A stretch of 64,000 bases of DNA, taken from Fibrobacter sp. Its GTDB lineage: Bacteria > Fibrobacterota > Chitinivibrionia > Chitinivibrionales > Chitinispirillaceae. How positions within the stretch are numbered: the stretch's first letter is position 1; each line of letters begins with the position of its first letter. Below, piece after piece: positions 4,149 through 35,598 of the stretch. The DNA lies in assembly GCA_012728995.1 (NCBI GenBank), contig JAAYEB010000330.1:1-64000 (forward strand), given 5' to 3'. Made by a program: the position numbers and the translations under genes. Under the pieces are notes generated by a model, which did no database searches, was not told the origin of the DNA, and saw only the letters and a program-made list of their open reading frames with translations.

Positions 4149-7067
4149 TTAGTATACATCAAGAAATACTTCTCCTGTGAGTCCTGACAATTGCGTATTA
4201 AGCCCCAAAAGATTGTCCAGTGTATTTATCACATTAACAGTCAATTCATTTCTTTTTGATTCACAATAATCGGTTATATCAAACTCTACAGGACACCAGC
4301 AACATTGTCCCAGATATTTCTCATTTATGCTTACTTCAACCGGACCAGAAACTTTGGAAAATCTCAATATCAGTTTTTTATACTCAGCAGGTATTTCAAA
4401 CGATTGACGATAAATACCAGATCCACTCATAAATGGATAACCGGAATTTGTCCATGAATCATGACTGGTAATTCCATAATGATTTTCAATTACCCAGCCA
4501 TTACTGCTTTTAGTTATGGCGAAATCACCAATAACAACAGGTGGTAATTTCAACAATCCGGAATCAAGGATATCTTCACCAGAAAATCTTGCTGAAATCC
4601 GGTTAAAACCTTTTTTTACATTCTTGCTGATATCGTACAATACAGATCGTAAACCGAAATGATAACTTGTATAAGTAAACAAGTTGTTTATTTTTTCATT
4701 ATCATGCTTGAAACCGGTTGATTCTTCATTAATCTTTCCGCATATCTCTGCTTTTGTACCATTAAAAAGTACTTCTATTGGTATTTCTGACATTTCAAGA
4801 TCTCTTAAGACTAAATAACAGCATGACGGTATATCGTTTACACTGAAATATGATTCATAATATCTTGAAAACCCGCCGGATCTACGACTTAATCCGAGTC
4901 GTAGATTCCAGACAGCAAGCGGCAATGCATTAAAAGATCCTGGTTTAAACTTCCACTGATCTTTCAACATTATGCTGTAAAAACTGTCTTTCCAATTGTG
5001 TGTTACCTTTTTGCGTATTTGTTTGAAGTGACCATACATCAGATTTTTATCTGCTGAAATTATTATTTGTGTACAGAGAGGTGGCACACAAACCGGTATG
5101 ATACATCGTTCTTCATTTTTTTGATAGTCCTTTATTTCACAGATTTCACAATCAGTACAATTTAGTGAATAAAATGACTTGTCATCAGGAGGGGCAAATA
5201 GTTTTACATTCTTTTTATTTTCTGTACATGGATTATACAGTAACCACAATTCATACTCATTACCTTTTCCGTAAGAGCAATACAGATCAGAATCTGAACA
5301 GTCATCATGTTTATATCTTATTACTGATAAAGGTTCAAGTTCTCCTTCAAGTTCCTGCAAAGTTATTACTCTGACCTGTTTTTTTTCCCTGGCCTTTAAG
5401 GATTTTTTTACATTTTTGGGAACTGAATTAATAAAAATAACTCTGCTTCCATTTTTCAACAGCTTTGCAATATCAGATACCGTCTGATCAGATAAATAAG
5501 GTACATCAGGAATCACAAGCATCTTGCATTTTCCGTTATACCTGCCTTTTGGCAATAAAAAATCTCCATCCGGAAAAAGAGAGCATCTGCCAACCATCTG
5601 CTCATTTACAAAATTGAAACCTGCTCCCGATTTTTTGACAACATTCAATAACTCATTGATCCCCATAAATATGTCTGCTGAATTATCAAATCCATCAGCA
5701 GACAAAACCCATGGTACAAGAATCGCTACTGGCCGGTCCCATCTGACACCTCTTGTCATAGCATTCATCCGGGAAACATAGTTACATAATAATTTGATAT
5801 ACTTCCATTCCGGCGACTGCTTTGAAAAAGTGTAAACGCTTTTCATCTGAAAATCAGAATCAATATTAAACAGAATTCCATTTATGAGGGTATGAGTCGT
5901 TTCGTAATGAATAGACTTGTCAAATTCATCCTTTAACGACTGAATTATCCCGCCCTGACATAATCGGTCACACCCAATAACATCAAGTACATTCCTCTGT
6001 TCCTGATGCATTATGATATTTGATATTATATTCTTTTTTAATTGATAATTTTTCGGTTTTCTACTTGGTAATTGCAATCCTGAAACACTCTGACATGAAT
6101 TGCACTCCCCTGCGATATCTTTAACAGACAACTCTTTACCCATATATTGTTCAGGATAAAGAATCCATTGTGTCATTCCAGTTTTTCCAGCCAATTCGTC
6201 CATCGATTTTCTAGTATTTTTCCTTATCATTTCATGAATGCATTCATACATCTGCATTTTAATCATATTAGACAAATCGTAATTATCACCAAACAATACC
6301 GCAAGACATGTCAATAGATCCTTTTTGAATTTATTTTTAAAGGTTAAAACGATACTGTCATCCCAGGGAAATGAATTTTTTATCTGATAGATATCCGGTA
6401 TTTCATTTATAAAGCCTTGAAAAGTAACAGGTATATGTTTTGAAAATTTTTTGTAAAAGCATTCAAATACCTCTGCATATACTCGCGATACATCTGCGTT
6501 TAAAATGTTTGGAATATATTTTCCATAGCTACTTTTCAGAAATTCCTTTTTAAATACCATTACCTTAAAGCTGCCTGAAGGCAGCCTATATTCGCAAGTA
6601 ACTCCATCAGTCTTACCTTTTAAAACTTTTACATCTGTTTCTGGTTGAGTGTCTTGAACTGCAAGTATAATATTGTAGCCTGGATCAGCCCGTTCCATTC
6701 TGAATACGCACGGACCTTTCATTTCGCTGCATTGTTCAAGAATAAGATTCTTTGCCCTCATTCTTTTTGACAAAAGAGGTGAATCCCAAATAGCACTTTC
6801 CATAAATGTATTAATTAACCGTATACTGATATTTAATTTTTGAGCTCTTTTCAGAACAAGGTCAAAAAGCTCAAAAAATTCTTCTGAAAAAAACTCAGGC
6901 ATCATACCTGGTACAGGCTTAATTGCAAGTCCGCCAAAACCATAAGCGGCCATTAAAGAGATCTGATCAATTATTTCTTTCTCACTTATTTTCAGATTCC
7001 AGATCCAGATCCCCCAAGGCTGGAAATCCCGATCAGGTTTTGCCAAAACTGCTTTCAAATTTTTCAA
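4149..7067 (-). CDS. Large GH106-like glycoside hydrolase (possible alpha-L-rhamnosidase)
   Basis: 972 residues. The N-terminus (PWGIWIWN near residue 17, then an AAYGFGGLAIKP stretch) resembles the opening of the (beta/alpha)8 domain of GH106-type enzymes. The last ~100 residues (YRQSFEIPAEYKK, VSINEKYLGQ, FDITDYC) are a galactose-binding-like beta-sandwich as in GH2/GH106 proteins. The middle shows a CxxC...CxxC-type cysteine group around TDCEICEI. There is no signal peptide, so it is probably cytoplasmic and acts on imported oligosaccharides. The start is a TTG at 7067 preceded by GGAG. It stands alone, with an 830 bp gap upstream. The enzyme class is a fold-level inference; substrate and activity are not established. 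Confidence 0.6.
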   Translation of the reverse strand: MKNLKAVLAKPDRDFQPWGIWIWNLKISEKEIIDQISLMAAYGFGGLAIKPVPGMMPEFFSEEFFELFDLVLKRAQKLNISIRLINTFMESAIWDSPLLSKRMRAKNLILEQCSEMKGPCVFRMERADPGYNIILAVQDTQPETDVKVLKGKTDGVTCEYRLPSGSFKVMVFKKEFLKSSYGKYIPNILNADVSRVYAEVFECFYKKFSKHIPVTFQGFINEIPDIYQIKNSFPWDDSIVLTFKNKFKKDLLTCLAVLFGDNYDLSNMIKMQMYECIHEMIRKNTRKSMDELAGKTGMTQWILYPEQYMGKELSVKDIAGECNSCQSVSGLQLPSRKPKNYQLKKNIISNIIMHQEQRNVLDVIGCDRLCQGGIIQSLKDEFDKSIHYETTHTLINGILFNIDSDFQMKSVYTFSKQSPEWKYIKLLCNYVSRMNAMTRGVRWDRPVAILVPWVLSADGFDNSADIFMGINELLNVVKKSGAGFNFVNEQMVGRCSLFPDGDFLLPKGRYNGKCKMLVIPDVPYLSDQTVSDIAKLLKNGSRVIFINSVPKNVKKSLKAREKKQVRVITLQELEGELEPLSVIRYKHDDCSDSDLYCSYGKGNEYELWLLYNPCTENKKNVKLFAPPDDKSFYSLNCTDCEICEIKDYQKNEERCIIPVCVPPLCTQIIISADKNLMYGHFKQIRKKVTHNWKDSFYSIMLKDQWKFKPGSFNALPLAVWNLRLGLSRRSGGFSRYYESYFSVNDIPSCCYLVLRDLEMSEIPIEVLFNGTKAEICGKINEESTGFKHDNEKINNLFTYTSYHFGLRSVLYDISKNVKKGFNRISARFSGEDILDSGLLKLPPVVIGDFAITKSSNGWVIENHYGITSHDSWTNSGYPFMSGSGIYRQSFEIPAEYKKLILRFSKVSGPVEVSINEKYLGQCCWCPVEFDITDYCESKRNELTVNVINTLDNLLGLNTQLSGLTGEVFLDVY

Positions 7068-7894: not shown

Positions 7895-8389
7895 CTAATC
7901 ACTTGATCGAAGAGCACCAAGAGCAAGGCCAATAGCTCCGCGAGCATCGAATGCTTCTTTAAAAAAAGCGCTTTCAACATATCCGATTTTTTTCAAATCC
8001 CAGGTTCCCGGCAAATATACAACTGTCTTTTCGGTAGCTAAAGCGAGCGAAATTTCACTGAGTGTCCCATATTTTCCGGGAAACGCAATTATTACATCTG
8101 AAGAATGAACAACCAGAACATTTCTGGCTATGCCCAACCCTGTAGGAATGGCAATATTAACATATGGATTTGCATCTGTTTTTTTAAGCCCCGGAAGAAT
8201 TCCGATAACAGTACCATGATTATCAGAACACCCCTTACTGGCGGCTTCCATAATGCCACCAAGGCCACCACACACAAGAACTGCACCATTTTTGGCTATA
8301 TGTGCGCCTGTTTCGTAAGCAATCTTATAATCATCCTTATTACACTGAGAAGCACCGATTATCCCGATAACAGGTTTCAAAACAGACAT
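7895..8389 (-). CDS. LOG/TIGR00725-type Rossmann protein
   Basis: 164 residues, with GGAGG before the ATG at 8389. The fold is that of the LOG family (cytokinin-activating phosphoribohydrolases, often called lysine-decarboxylase-like). GGLGGIMEAASKG near residue 41 is the nucleotide-binding loop. The usual PGGxGTxxE motif is present in altered form as PGKYGTLSE, which is typical of the TIGR00725 branch and leaves the phosphoribohydrolase activity unproven. It is the last gene of a tight minus-strand run: yjbQ ends 11 bp before it, and yjbQ overlaps pgi. Its biological substrate is unknown. Confidence 0.8.
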   Translation of the reverse strand: MSVLKPVIGIIGASQCNKDDYKIAYETGAHIAKNGAVLVCGGLGGIMEAASKGCSDNHGTVIGILPGLKKTDANPYVNIAIPTGLGIARNVLVVHSSDVIIAFPGKYGTLSEISLALATEKTVVYLPGTWDLKKIGYVESAFFKEAFDARGAIGLALGALRSSD

Positions 8390-8400
8390 TAATCCTCCAT

Positions 8401-8817
8401 CTATTCACCAATAATTTTAATCAAAACTCTCTTTGGTCGGCGTCCATCAAATTCACCATAGAATATTTGTTCCCAGGGACCAAAATCCAACCTGCCATCC
8501 GTTACAGCAACGACCACTTCTCTACCCATGACCTGTCTTTTCAGATGCGCATCACCGTTATCTTCAGCCCCATTATGATGATACTGAGAAACAGGCATAT
8601 AAGGAGCGAGTTTTTCGAGCCATGCATCAAAGTCTTTAATCAATCCTGATTCATCATCATTAATATAAACACTGGCAGTGATATGCATTGCATTTACAAG
8701 ACATAACCCTTCCTTAATACCACTTTCAGTTAAAGCATCAATAACCTGATCTGTAATATTGATATAATCCCGTCTGTTCCTGGTATTAAAGGTTAAAACC
8801 TTTCTGAAAGATTTCAT
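8401..8817 (-). CDS. YjbQ-family protein (UPF0047)
   Basis: 138 residues, the full family length. The family is a small trimeric beta-sandwich; some members show weak thiamine-phosphate synthase activity and the physiological role is open. Conserved parts are present: [15 protein letters not shown] near residue 43, the histidine pair in [16 protein letters not shown], and the C-terminal [15 protein letters not shown]. Its ATG overlaps the pgi stop codon (ATGA), so it is translationally coupled to pgi. The LOG-like gene follows after 11 bp. Confidence 0.88.
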
Positions 8818-10160
8818 AACTCCATCTCTTTTGTCTTTTCTTGAAGTTCTTTGCGTCTTTTTTCAAATCCCACTTTTCCCAATAAAGCAAACATATTCTT
8901 CTTATATGCTTCAACACCAGGTTGATCAAATGGATTAACTCGCAGTAGATATCCGCTAATTGCTATTGCTTTTTCGAAAAAATAGAAAAGTTGCCCCAAC
9001 GTATCGGCACAACGATCTTCCAGCTCAATTGTAGATACCGGAACACCACCATCAAGATGGGCAAGAAGGGTTCCGCGGTATGCATTTATATTAATTTCTT
9101 CAAAACTTTTTCCTGCAAGGTAATTCAATTCATCACTGTCATCATCAAACTTTGGTATGCAAAGAGTACGTGAAGTCTTTTTTAAAACCATAAAAGTTTC
9201 AAAAACATTACGAACTCCCTCCTGCATCCATTGGCCCAAAGAATGAAGATCTGTAGTATAATCCAGTGCTGCAGGAAAGATTCCCGTTCCGTTTTTACCT
9301 TCACTTTCACCAGCAAGCTGCTTCCACCATTCACTTATAAAATGAATCTGAGGGGCAAAAGCAGCCATTACCTCATTAGTATATCCTTTTCTAAAAAGAA
9401 TGTTCCTTACAGCAGCATAATGACCAGAGAGGTTATTCTCCAAATTATCTCCGCAACAAAAACCCATTGCAGTTTCTGCACCCTCAAGCAACTTTCCTAT
9501 ATCGATTCCAGCAGCAGCAATTGGAAACAAACCCACCGGAGTTAATACAGAAAATCTTCCACCTACATCTGAAGGAATATCAAAAGTTGTATAACCTTCC
9601 TCATCAGCAAGCTTCCGTAATGCCCCTTTTGATGGATCTGTGGTAGCAATTATTCTTGAAGCAGCTTCTTTTTTACCATATCGGTTTTCCATCCATTGTC
9701 GAATAACCCTGAATGCGATACCTGGTTCTGTGGTAGTTCCACTTTTGGAAATGACATTTACAGAAACCCTTTTGTCTTTGACCAGATCAAGAAGATCAGC
9801 AATGTAATCAGAATTTATAGAATGACCACAAAAAAGAACCCTGGGTTTTCTTGTATCTTCAAAGGTTGAAGACATATACTCAATTGCAGCACGAGCCCCC
9901 AGATACGATCCACCTATGCCGATACAGATCAGCACATCTGTTTTCGACCTGATTTCTTCTGCTTTTTGACTGATAACTCCTACGTTTTTTTTCATAGTTC
10001 GCGGGAGGTCAATCCAACCCAGAAAATCGTTACCAGGTCCACTACGATCCTTGAGCATTTTTTCTGCTGATGCTATTGAATTATTATATAGTTCGATTTC
10101 ATCTCTTGAAACATACTCACCTGAAAACTGATCATTATAAAAAATTTTCGGAGTCGACAT
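8814..10160 (-). CDS. pgi: Glucose-6-phosphate isomerase
   Basis: 448 residues, matching the short bacterial form. It interconverts glucose 6-phosphate and fructose 6-phosphate in the cytoplasm. The family signatures are clear: GIGGSYLGA at 81-89, [25 protein letters not shown], the active-site [20 protein letters not shown] region and the C-terminal [17 protein letters not shown]. Start is the ATG at 10160 with an AAAGG site. It lies about 100 bp downstream of the diadenylate-cyclase fusion gene on the same strand and overlaps yjbQ by 4 bp. Confidence 0.97.
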
Positions 10161-10259: not shown

Positions 10260-11654
10260 TCACAGAAATCGTTGTATCATACTTTTTTCTCTTACAGCCG
10301 GTCTTGCTATCGACATCATAATAACACCACTTTTGAAAATAGTTACAGTGCCGGTAGACTCCGATATTGTGATTGCCAAAGCATTAGTACAAGCTGTAAT
10401 CCCCGCTGCTGCTGCGTGCCTGGCACCGAAACCACCTGGCAGCGGTGGTAATTCTTCCGTTGGCGCAGGCCGCAAATAGCTTCCGGCAGATAACACAATG
10501 CCGTCTCCTGTAATTATAAACGCTCCATCAATACTCGCAAACTCTTTAATTGTCTCAACCAAACCCGGATCAAGTATATTTCGTTCTGCCTCACTATATC
10601 CTCTGAAAGGATTGATAATGAGCTGGCGAACATACGCGTTTACGGTATTAGTGTCACCAACCACGAAGATGGTACCGATTGGTTTTCCTTCCCTTCCTTC
10701 AACAGCGATTTCACCAGCAAGGCCAATTATCCTTTCAAGCACTTCAGGTTTTACATCAGGAGGAAGAATATTTTGTGCCGTAGAAAAGAAAAACTCATAC
10801 TCCAGTGCAATGTCAATAGCTACAATAGTATCAAATACTCCATTTTTTGAATTTCCCGACAAACATACGACCCGGTCCTCTCTTCCAAGTAAATTCCTCG
10901 ACAAGGCCAATAAAATTCCGATTTTCATCTGTCCAGTCCTTGAAGCCGGTATTGAAGGCGCCTGAAGCAATCCAGCCACTTTTTTGTCATTAACAAGATC
11001 GAAACGGGTTTTATTACTTGTGACAAGAATCAACTTTGGTTTTAATTTGAACTGATCTAAAAAATCATTTTCCCGAACAGTATCAGCAAATACCATTATT
11101 GCACTGGCTTTAATATCTCTGGCCAGACTGATTGTTGAACTTATTAATGGATTAATAATCTTCTTTGTAGCAGTTTTTTGTGATTTTTCTTCAGGAACAC
11201 CTTTTTTTAATGAAGTAATTATATTTTTAATCCCGACAGGTCCTTCATATGACAATATCTGCTCCCTGACAGCATCAGATTTAAAAAAGGCAGCCAGTTC
11301 TGAAAGAATCTGTATTTGACGATTATTATCTGCATCGTCTCTTGCAACCAGCAGGACAATAACATGGGCCAAAGCCCCCCTGGCAGCATCATATTTGATA
11401 CCAGCCATACTACGCCCTACAACTATGGCGAACTCCTCTTTTATCGGTCCTCTTGCCTGAGGAAGAGCAAGCCCCTGTCCGATAAATGTTGATGCAGATT
11501 CTTCTCTTTTTAAAATTTCATCAATTATGGTCTTCTGTTTTTTTACATCCAGTGCTTTACATAAAAGCAAAGACAATTCACGAATAGCTTCAACTTTCTC
11601 TTCCGCTTTAAGCTCAACAACTGTTGGCATTACCAGATATTGTTCAAAAGACAA
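10260..11654 (-). CDS. EIIA-like / PK_C-like / DisA_N diadenylate cyclase fusion
   Basis: 464 residues in three parts. Residues 1-150 have the fold signature of a PTS fructose/Ntr-type EIIA domain, but the phospho-acceptor histidine is replaced: GLALPQARG, Gln66. Residues ~165-290 resemble the pyruvate-kinase C-terminal-like domain found before the cyclase domain in archaeal DacZ proteins. Residues ~300-455 are a DisA_N diadenylate cyclase domain with DGA at 376-378 and GARHAAAA at 410-417; the usual RHR is RHA here. The likely product is c-di-AMP, a cell-wall and osmolyte messenger. The start is a TTG at 11654 with GGAGG upstream, overlapping the end of the acyltransferase gene. Whether the changed residues still allow catalysis cannot be told from sequence. 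Confidence 0.75.
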   Translation of the reverse strand: MSFEQYLVMPTVVELKAEEKVEAIRELSLLLCKALDVKKQKTIIDEILKREESASTFIGQGLALPQARGPIKEEFAIVVGRSMAGIKYDAARGALAHVIVLLVARDDADNNRQIQILSELAAFFKSDAVREQILSYEGPVGIKNIITSLKKGVPEEKSQKTATKKIINPLISSTISLARDIKASAIMVFADTVRENDFLDQFKLKPKLILVTSNKTRFDLVNDKKVAGLLQAPSIPASRTGQMKIGILLALSRNLLGREDRVVCLSGNSKNGVFDTIVAIDIALEYEFFFSTAQNILPPDVKPEVLERIIGLAGEIAVEGREGKPIGTIFVVGDTNTVNAYVRQLIINPFRGYSEAERNILDPGLVETIKEFASIDGAFIITGDGIVLSAGSYLRPAPTEELPPLPGGFGARHAAAAGITACTNALAITISESTGTVTIFKSGVIMMSIARPAVREKSMIQRFL

Positions 11655-11656
11655 TG

Positions 11657-12775
11657 CTACCTCCAGTTCTCACCAATTACAGCAGCAAAATAGTTAATTA
11701 TATCACTATTTTTTGTATATATCATATAATTATTTATTGTAATTGCATTTAATTTTAAAAGCTGCGAAATCCCCGATTCAACCAGTTTAGTTTCAGACAC
11801 TGATTTTAACATTTCGATATTTCTATTTTCACTGCTCAAAAATTGCAAAAGTGAAGATGCGTTTTCAGATATCTGGTTTATTGGTACCTTTAATTTTCCT
11901 TTAATTAAAATCGCCACAATGTGTATCGGTAAAATACAAAAAAGTGAAAGAAACTTTTTATTAATCACTTCACCAGCTTTTTGCATAGAAACCCGATGTG
12001 CCGAAAACTCATCCCTGGCATTCCGGATAAGATTTTTTTCAATGTCAACGATAGACCTTACAGAAACCGTTTCATTAAAATCTACATAGACATCCCCAAA
12101 TTTTTTTCCAGTATATCTGGAAAAAAACATTGGAAGGAATGCCATAATATCAGCTCCAAAATAATATCCATTTCCAATAATACGCTTAAATATGTTATTA
12201 CTTCTTCTCCTTAAGCTTTTTCCTTTTTGCAACAGGCCAAACCACGGAAGATCCGGAGGAAACTCATATGAAACAGACGCTATCAACAAATTTACATCAT
12301 CTGAAAGGTCCTTTGCCTGACAAAGAATTGCAGCTCCAAGAACTCCACTCTTAATTTCCATAGCTTTTCCAGAATAACTTCTCCCACCTTCAGGAAAAAC
12401 AATAACCGGTTCCCGGTTTTCCAGCATCGTAATTACATTCCTGCATAAATTACGAACATAATTACGTTCAAATCCATTATCCCTTTCCACAGTAAAAGCA
12501 CCCAGAGACTTGAACCATGGACCAATTACAGGTAAACCTGTCAGATTGTCACCGGCAGCAAATCTCAAATTTTTAAAGCCCATCTTGTGCAGGAGTATTC
12601 CTATCAGAATATAATCGATATGACTCCTGTGGGTACTGATAACCATTAAAGGGCGTTTCTGGATTTCTGATGCATCCAGATGTGGACCTCGAATATGAAT
12701 ATTACTGAAATTGGATTTAAAAAAATTATCAACGCTGTTGTGAACACCGCAGACAATATCATGATATGAACTCAT
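11657..12775 (-). CDS. PlsB-like glycerolipid acyltransferase
   Basis: About 372 residues from the ATG at 12775 (an upstream TTG at 12796 lacks a ribosome site). The acyltransferase signature H-x4-D is seen as THRSHID, followed by the substrate motif FPEGGRSYSGK and an upstream VERDNGFERNYVR block. The domain is of the LPLAT/GPAT type that moves acyl groups to glycerol-3-phosphate or lysophosphatidate at the inner membrane face. It is shorter than full-length E. coli PlsB (~800 residues). Its stop codon lies in the ribosome site of the cyclase fusion gene (GGAGGTAG), so the two are coupled. The exact acceptor is uncertain. Confidence 0.8.
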   Translation of the reverse strand: MSSYHDIVCGVHNSVDNFFKSNFSNIHIRGPHLDASEIQKRPLMVISTHRSHIDYILIGILLHKMGFKNLRFAAGDNLTGLPVIGPWFKSLGAFTVERDNGFERNYVRNLCRNVITMLENREPVIVFPEGGRSYSGKAMEIKSGVLGAAILCQAKDLSDDVNLLIASVSYEFPPDLPWFGLLQKGKSLRRRSNNIFKRIIGNGYYFGADIMAFLPMFFSRYTGKKFGDVYVDFNETVSVRSIVDIEKNLIRNARDEFSAHRVSMQKAGEVINKKFLSLFCILPIHIVAILIKGKLKVPINQISENASSLLQFLSSENRNIEMLKSVSETKLVESGISQLLKLNAITINNYMIYTKNSDIINYFAAVIGENWR

Positions 12776-13384
12776 GTACAAAACCTGCCATGACAAATAA
12801 TACTAAAACAATTTATTAAAAATAGGATTTGTTACATCTAAAACCAAGTAATACCTATATCGGATAATTAATTTAATTCTCGCATATTGAGCAAATTCAT
12901 ATTCAACCAGGAGGAAACTGGATGTAAAAACAACAACAATTAAAATAACTGCAAATTACTGGTGACTTAAAATGCTTCAGAAATAAAATACATGATTGTT
13001 GTTAAATAATTTCATGTAGTATTACTCACTACATTTTTCAGAAAACAAATATTATGTTCCGATTGTGACAAACATCAATTCACCTGTATTTGCGTTACAA
13101 GCTCAAACAAGCGATTTATAGAATCAGATAATTCTATATAATACGTTCATAACTTTCCTGGAGGGATATTATCATTTTAAACGCAGCGGGTATACAAATT
13201 CCACTTATGGCAGACATTTTTTTGCAGCAGTATCCTAAACAGATTGGACCATGAATGCTAAATTGAATTTGGCTATTCAGTTTTTAAATAAAACCATATA
13301 TCCCCCTCTCCCACTGGTACACTTTGCAGATACACAAAACCAGATAAGGAAAGGAGGTATTTGACCAAAATCTATTAGCCTTTT
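12776..13384. other. 600 bp AT-rich gap
   Basis: No supported gene. A 37-codon frame starts at the ATG at 13252 without a ribosome site. An AAGGAGGT string at 13351-13358 would serve a TTG at 13361, but that frame stops after five codons. The gap holds the 3' end of the zinc-finger gene and the promoter side of the acyltransferase operon. Confidence 0.5.
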
Positions 13385-13837
13385 TCAGGCTACATCTTCA
13401 ACAATATCGTCATTGTTCTCTTTATCTTTATCTCTGTTTATTTCGAAACTTTCACCTTCACTTTTCATCTGCTCAATAAGATCTTCCCTTCCAATCAATT
13501 GTAAATGACGAATCCTTTTGTATTCATTACGGTGTTCGGGACAGTATTTTGGATAGATATACTGACGAGGATATATTTTGACTTCAAACTGATGATCACA
13601 CCCTTCAAGAGCACAATTCATCACCATGGTAACAACTTCAGTATAATTATGCTTGAATGTCTGATTTTTGATGTTTACATCTTCAGGCTTTGTCCTTTTT
13701 CGAATACGATACCTGTCCTGTCGATGCTCCGGACAATATTTCGAAATATGGATTCCAAAAAAAATTTTTCCACAACCGGGATACTGACATTTTTTCTCCC
13801 GGAGCTTCTGACGTCTTCGTGACTTTGGTAATTGCAT
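13385..13837 (-). CDS. Duplicated CxxxC/CxxH zinc-finger protein of unknown function
   Basis: 150 residues. Two related modules are visible: CQYPGCGKIFFG...KYCPEHRQDRY at ~17-43 and CALEGCDHQFEV...KYCPEHRNEYK at ~75-107. Each has C-x4-C then C-x2-H, enough for one zinc ion, and both end in the same KYCPEHR core, so the gene arose by internal duplication. The N-terminus is strongly basic and the last 30 residues are acidic and probably disordered. A nucleic-acid-binding role is plausible but not shown. GGAGG lies about 10 bases before the ATG. A short hairpin spans the stop codon. It stands alone, divergent from the mla operon. Confidence 0.7.
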   Translation of the reverse strand: MQLPKSRRRQKLREKKCQYPGCGKIFFGIHISKYCPEHRQDRYRIRKRTKPEDVNIKNQTFKHNYTEVVTMVMNCALEGCDHQFEVKIYPRQYIYPKYCPEHRNEYKRIRHLQLIGREDLIEQMKSEGESFEINRDKDKENNDDIVEDVA

Positions 13838-35117: not shown

Positions 35118-35131
35118 TCCTGAGATCAGTT
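35112..35131. terminator. Convergent terminator hairpin over both stop codons
   Basis: AACTGATC-CTGA-GATCAGTT: eight perfect pairs with a 4-base loop. It includes the M20 gene stop (TGA at 35115-35117) and abuts the EIIA stop (35131-35133); a T-rich stretch follows on the plus strand. A compact bidirectional terminator. Confidence 0.6.
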
Positions 35132-35598
35132 TATTCAATGTACTTTTCTTCGCTTTTTTTAATTATATCTAGAAATTGTTCAACAGTTTCAGCCGAAAAG
35201 AGTTTTTCCCTTACATCCTCATAGGCCATTATACTCGACAGAGAAGAAAGAATCTGTGTATGCTCAGTGGAAGTGTTTGCAGGTGAAATCAACATAAAGA
35301 TCAGATGAACCGGCTGATCATCAATAGCACCAAACTCTATACCATTTACCGAACGTGCAGCAACCATATAAAGTCTGTCTATTCCTGTTATTCTCGCATG
35401 TGGAATTGCTATTCCATAACCAATTCCAGTCGACATATCAGATTCACGTTCAAGAATCAGTCTTGAAATCTGCTCACCGTTATCAAGTCCATACAATGAA
35501 GCCATAAATTTTGCTGTCTGACGAAGTACCTGGTCTTTTTCGGTACTTTTCAGATCAATTAGAATTGAGCTTTTTTGAAGAAGATCCTGAATTTTCAC
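35131..35598 (-). CDS. ptsN: PTS nitrogen-type EIIA protein
   Basis: 155 residues, from a GTG at 35598 with AAAGGA upstream. It is an EIIA(Ntr)/fructose-type domain and keeps the phospho-acceptor histidine: GIAIPHARI, His67. It is the usual form of a phosphorelay regulator that senses PEP/nitrogen state. HPr or EI genes are not in the window. It is followed upstream by a small membrane protein gene on the same strand. Compare the EIIA part of the 10260-11654 fusion, where this His is Gln. Confidence 0.88.
   Translation of the reverse strand: MKIQDLLQKSSILIDLKSTEKDQVLRQTAKFMASLYGLDNGEQISRLILERESDMSTGIGYGIAIPHARITGIDRLYMVAARSVNGIEFGAIDDQPVHLIFMLISPANTSTEHTQILSSLSSIMAYEDVREKLFSAETVEQFLDIIKKSEEKYIE

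Follow-up and report, generated by a model that had tools for sequence, protein, structure and literature searches.

Organization of the locus

The window analysed here, a stretch of 64,000 nucleotides, carries on its minus strand a gene in which a PTS EIIA-type domain, a DacZ_P domain and a diadenylate cyclase (DAC) domain are fused. The features of this locus, and the stand-alone EIIA gene found elsewhere in the window, are the following:

10260..11654, minus strand: EIIA-DacZ_P-DAC fusion gene, 464 aa, TTG start (open reading frame, Pfam, AlphaFold, orthologues in the order)
11660..11664, minus strand: GGAGG ribosome-binding site, 5 bases before the TTG start of the fusion, overlapping the acyltransferase stop
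11211..11624, minus strand: PTS_EIIA_2-type domain, about residues 11-148 (Pfam, Foldseek)
11457..11459, minus strand: Gln66 codon (CAG) at the EIIA phospho-histidine position (sequence, alignment)
11316..11318, minus strand: Gln113 codon (CAA) at the second EIIA histidine position (sequence, alignment)
10785..11147, minus strand: DacZ_P domain with pyruvate kinase C-terminal (PK_C) fold, residues 170-290 (Pfam, phylum search, model and Foldseek)
10323..10709, minus strand: DAC diadenylate cyclase domain, residues 316-444 (Pfam; Foldseek to CdaA)
10521..10529, minus strand: DGA motif, residues 376-378, invariant in 39 aligned proteins
10413..10421, minus strand: RHA at the RHR motif position, residues 412-414; R412 and H413 invariant in 39 proteins
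11657..12796, minus strand: PlsB-like acyltransferase, first gene of a conserved pair with the fusion (Pfam Acyltransferase)
8814..10160, minus strand: glucose-6-phosphate isomerase (PGI), next gene downstream of the fusion (NCBIfam PRK14097, above cut-off)
8401..8817, minus strand: YjbQ/UPF0047 gene, after PGI (profile matches, orthologous loci)
7895..8389, minus strand: SLOG/LOG-like gene, after YjbQ (profile matches, orthologous loci)
35131..35598, minus strand: stand-alone EIIA, both histidines kept (Pfam, alignment; orthologues beside an EIIA-DacZ paralogue)

A sequence-only reading of this DNA had proposed the succession of an EIIA, a PK_C-like and a cyclase domain, and profile searches of the single parts, AlphaFold and Foldseek all agree with it. 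Pfam recognizes PTS_EIIA_2 at residues 13-147 (E 7e-21; 75 bits, with a cut-off of 27), DacZ_P at residues 173-290 (E 2.5e-7) and DAC (PF02457) at residues 316-444 (E 1.6e-20), along with a weak match to PK_C (0.013). The full-length model (pLDDT 82.5, pTM 0.80) features a head similar to the EIIA(Ntr) structures 3urr, 2a0j and 1a6j (TM 0.72-0.81 by target) and a C-terminal part similar to CdaA (TM 0.55-0.64 by target), DisA being matched as well. The middle domain, modelled alone with a pLDDT of 86, resembles pyruvate kinase C-terminal domains (TM 0.58-0.68 by query), which, together with the DacZ_P match, confirms the likeness to the middle domain of DacZ that had been suggested. Being a match by fold, and weak by sequence, the resemblance to pyruvate kinase does not prove that the modelled domain binds a ligand.

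The acyltransferase gene precedes the fusion in 32 of the 33 testable orthologous loci, and PGI follows it in about 20. In two genomes of a single genus (G026 and G027, genus g14), and only there, divergent trkA and trkH genes adjoin the acyltransferase-fusion pair. The neighbourhood also includes, at 13385-13837 on the minus strand, a 150-aa protein with two cysteine-rich, zinc-ribbon-like clusters and no Pfam match at E 0.01, which is 85-92% identical in most relatives where it is seen, its neighbours being about 40-80% identical. No Rfam match was found between positions 7000 and 37000 of the window. A role in defence was considered and discarded, as the PADLOC matches were weak and limited to the SLOG gene and the DAC domain.

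Distribution of the fusion in Fibrobacterota

The search covered 168 genomes of Fibrobacterota, 40 belonging to the order of the window and 128 to the rest of the phylum. Orthologues of the fusion, 46-80% identical, were found throughout the order, and since they span it, the occurrence of the fusion is far beyond chance. DacZ_P is present in 34 of the 40 genomes and in none of the 128 others. With orthologues in about 34 of the 40 genomes and in none of the 128 others, the EIIA-DacZ_P-DAC fusion belongs to the core genes of the class Chitinispirillia. Remoter homologues (mostly 32-35% identity), found in 8 genomes of the order, make up a paralogous clade; in one genome (G018, contig C307) the His-bearing paralogue is seemingly split across two frames, as if by a frameshift. 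A third, very divergent EIIA-DAC protein was observed in loci L008 (5971-7302) and L046 (G037, contig C1); its RHR motif is complete and neither EIIA histidine is replaced, and the open reading frame preceding it looks RelA/SpoT-like by eye.

Outside the phylum, no relative of the fusion was found in the viral contigs searched, matches in the phages searched were confined to the EIIA region, and the plasmids searched yielded two haloarchaeal DacZ proteins and matches to the EIIA region. No description of an EIIA joined to a c-di-AMP synthase was found in the open-licence literature searched. The architecture may nevertheless be already catalogued among those of DAC proteins, because a Pfam DacZ_P model exists, whose best match within the phylum lies in G025.

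The cyclase domain

Among the three domains, conservation is strongest in DAC, with a mean pairwise identity of 0.76 and dN/dS of 0.03-0.07. Most main-clade proteins have Ala as the third residue of the RHR motif; the paralogues have Thr, and Arg occurs only in L008 and L046. The motifs, DGA and RHA in place of RHR, are as first described; the altered catalysis that RHA might imply does not follow, since two haloarchaeal (Haladaptatus) DacZ proteins feature RHH and the CdaA of this very genome features RHT. On the same grounds RHA was ruled out as a sign of catalytic loss.

A DAC domain was found in 35 of the 40 genomes of the order, 10 of which encode a CdaA-like protein. About 24 genomes have no DAC other than the fusion and, where present, its paralogue, yet a PgpH-type phosphodiesterase domain is found in 37 of the 40; for this reason the fusion is most likely the protein that makes c-di-AMP. 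This probably extends to near-complete genomes such as G025, G027, G028 and G029, the sole DAC of which carries Gln66 or Lys66. Four genomes of one genus (G010-G013, genus g5; completeness 68-91%) have a PgpH-type domain and no DAC match, a weak partial DacZ_P match being present in G010.

Histidine positions of the EIIA domain

The replacement of the phospho-histidine by Gln66, within the motif GLALPQARG, holds true for this genome. As a fixed property of the family, however, the loss is ruled out by the alignment: the 33 main-clade orthologues carry Gln (20), His (10), Lys (2) or Tyr (1) at position 66, and His66 is found even in L001, 80% identical to the window protein. The sequence-only reading had named His-bearing homologues, combined with the lack of a consistent EIIA fold, as evidence against itself; the former were found, and the EIIA fold is consistent. 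The second histidine (position 113), which in sugar-type EIIA takes part in the transfer to EIIB (PMC13104625), is kept in 4 of the 33, all with His66, and the paralogous clade keeps both.

On a tree built without L008, the inclusion of which made the tree unreliable (branch length 7.67), the distribution of His and other residues at position 66 requires 6 changes by parsimony, and 13 if only losses are allowed. A two-state model with regain also fits better than a loss-only one (lnL -17.4 vs -33.8), so that repeated loss alone is not to be assumed. The phospho-histidine would have been lost, or lost and regained, several times within the family. His codons (CAY) and Gln codons (CAR) are one base apart.

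Constraint on the EIIA domain

With a mean pairwise identity of 0.50, EIIA is the least conserved domain, DacZ_P being intermediate (0.56). It is under purifying selection all the same: dN/dS ranges from 0.04 to 0.30 in measurable pairs, and Gln, Lys and His types behave alike, as expected of the sensor or partner-binding module that had been proposed. Several residues are nearly invariant, Gln66 members included (R50, E51, S55, F57, G59, A63, Y88 and R92). All 31 orthologues compared have F57 beside the active site, where the stand-alone EIIA has Gly, and the YDAAR segment (88-92), with R92 in 31 of 31, is peculiar to the clade. Given this selection, the clade-wide F57 and the YDAAR segment with its R92, the EIIA pocket is maintained but altered. 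Because F57 replaces the usual Gly in them too, the His66 forms may themselves depart from ordinary phospho-acceptors.

PTS components of the order

EI was detected in 39 and HPr in 38 of the 40 genomes of the order, in none of which was PTS_EIIC (PF02378, the EIIC family searched) found. A widespread EI and HPr without this EIIC make the relay look regulatory. HprK scores above cut-off only in G030 (contig C41), G031 (C40) and G032 (C268), lying near HPr in the first two; the fusion keeps both histidines in these three genomes and in one more and, since the three belong to one family, the coincidence counts at most as a single evolutionary case.

The stand-alone EIIA at 35131-35598 does keep His67 and the second histidine, as had been noted of a "true EIIA(Ntr)"; NCBIfam, however, does not give it that name, its fruA and nitro_reg_IIA models both scoring below cut-off. 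Its orthologues (61-64% identity) adjoin the His-bearing EIIA-DacZ paralogue in G004, G005 and G006. No remnant of that paralogue was found beside the stand-alone EIIA of the window, beyond the EIIA match itself.

Discussion

The reading we favour, with a probability of roughly 55%, is that of a DacZ/CdaZ-class cyclase regulated by PtsN-like EIIA and PK_C-fold modules, the Gln66 form of which would be non-phosphorylatable, unphosphorylated-like and partner-binding, and the output of which would concern potassium. Two DAC domains would pair head to head, converting two molecules of ATP to c-di-AMP, and their pairing would be controlled by the PK_C-fold and EIIA domains. The latter would work like PtsN (EIIA-Ntr), which in E. 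coli binds, when unphosphorylated, TrkA, YcgO and KdpD (review, PMC13104625). Where His66 is present, and especially where the second histidine is kept as well, the phosphorelay may still operate the switch; Gln66 lineages, this one included, would represent a natural non-phosphorylatable form, mimicking the unphosphorylated, partner-binding state. As the Gln66 form would be fixed in such a state, its input would be a partner or ligand and not phosphate, which is the weakest link of the mechanism.

c-di-AMP acts on potassium transport, and the output of the fusion would probably set potassium uptake via TrkA and similar receptors, the messenger being presumably broken down by the PgpH-type phosphodiesterase. 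The trkA and trkH genes next to the pair in G026 and G027 speak for such an output, though in one genus only. Two observations count against these receptors as settled: TrkA_C has no match in 9 of the 40 genomes of the order, and the c-di-AMP riboswitch RF00379 was found in none of the 40.

Different roles may be imagined for the EIIA head. If the fusion were an ordinary phosphorelay-controlled cyclase, the activity of which is set by phosphorylation of His66, Gln66 lineages would have lost their input and their EIIA domain would be drifting. That 10 of the 33 orthologues, as well as the paralogues, carry His66 would fit, as would the finding of the second histidine only along with His66 (4/10 vs 0/23; Fisher p 0.005, a value that ignores relatedness) and of HprK only in three of the four both-histidine genomes, members of one family. 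Yet the EIIA domain of Gln66 and Lys66 lineages is not drifting, since purifying selection acts on it much as in His66 lineages, and the replacement is nearly always Gln (20 Gln, 2 Lys, 1 Tyr), hence non-random; we consider this explanation unlikely. Rather improbable, in our view, is also that EIIA receives no signal itself and only serves as a scaffold, promotes oligomerization or docks metabolic enzymes. Its being the least conserved domain would agree with such a role, and so would the presence of a glycolytic enzyme, PGI, as the next gene in about 20 loci; many near-invariant residues, however, cluster round the former active site (R50, E51, S55, F57, G59, A63, P65).

Doubt may also be cast on the other end of the protein. 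Were the cyclase domain degenerate, the fusion would be a receptor of c-di-AMP or of a nucleotide, and not a synthase. The Ala found as third residue of the RHR motif recalls the M. tuberculosis DacA mutant in which RHR was changed to AAA, abolishing ATP binding (PMC3328451); in that case, however, all three residues were replaced, whereas R412 and H413 are invariant here and the third position differs also in the haloarchaeal DacZ and in CdaA of the same genome. The strong constraint on DAC, and the about 24 genomes with no other kind of DAC, nearly all of them endowed with PgpH, make this reading very improbable indeed.

The regulated cyclase that we favour may be extended to a broader proposal, namely that the fusion is a class-wide c-di-AMP synthase under direct PtsN-like control, joining the regulatory PTS to c-di-AMP, the switch of which was repeatedly turned into a Gln form, the domain being kept. 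This we advance tentatively, deeming it somewhat more likely wrong than right. One protein may join two known signalling pathways, of potassium and of carbon: potassium transport is a target of c-di-AMP as well as of unphosphorylated PtsN, and the fusion would bring the two together in one polypeptide. It would also account for c-di-AMP synthesis in a bacterial class mostly devoid of CdaA. Since position 66 varies naturally between His, Gln, Lys and Tyr, a comparison of orthologues can test how the phosphorylation state affects the output of the cyclase.

Comparison with known systems

The DacZ class is defined by a PK_C-fold domain ahead of DAC, and is also found in some bacteria; the H. volcanii member is a studied c-di-AMP synthase (PMC6741144). 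By its modelled fold, the fusion is a member of this DacZ/CdaZ (DacY) class, which includes H. volcanii DacZ and M. jannaschii CdaZ, and falls outside the haloarchaeal equivalog (NCBIfam NF041371), scoring 115 bits against a cut-off of 430. It shares with the class the PK_C-fold domain before DAC (PF02457), the DGA motif and an RHx motif with a variable third residue, and differs by the added N-terminal EIIA; the DacZ_P model, moreover, found no match in the control genomes of M. jannaschii and H. volcanii. The CdaA encoded in this genome (G000, contig C351) shares DAC, DGA and RHx, and is devoid of EIIA and PK_C domains.

As to PtsN, the head of the fusion shares the EIIA fold, a PTS without PF02378 EIIC and, in two genomes, a potassium context; it differs in being fused to a cyclase and in carrying Gln66, Gln113 and Phe57 in place of Gly, and its score against the PtsN model TIGR01419 is 42 bits, below the cut-off of 138.7. 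Compared with the phospho-carrier EIIA of the PTS, the head matches PTS_EIIA_2 in fold and score, but has Gln66 and Gln113 where the carrier has its two histidines.
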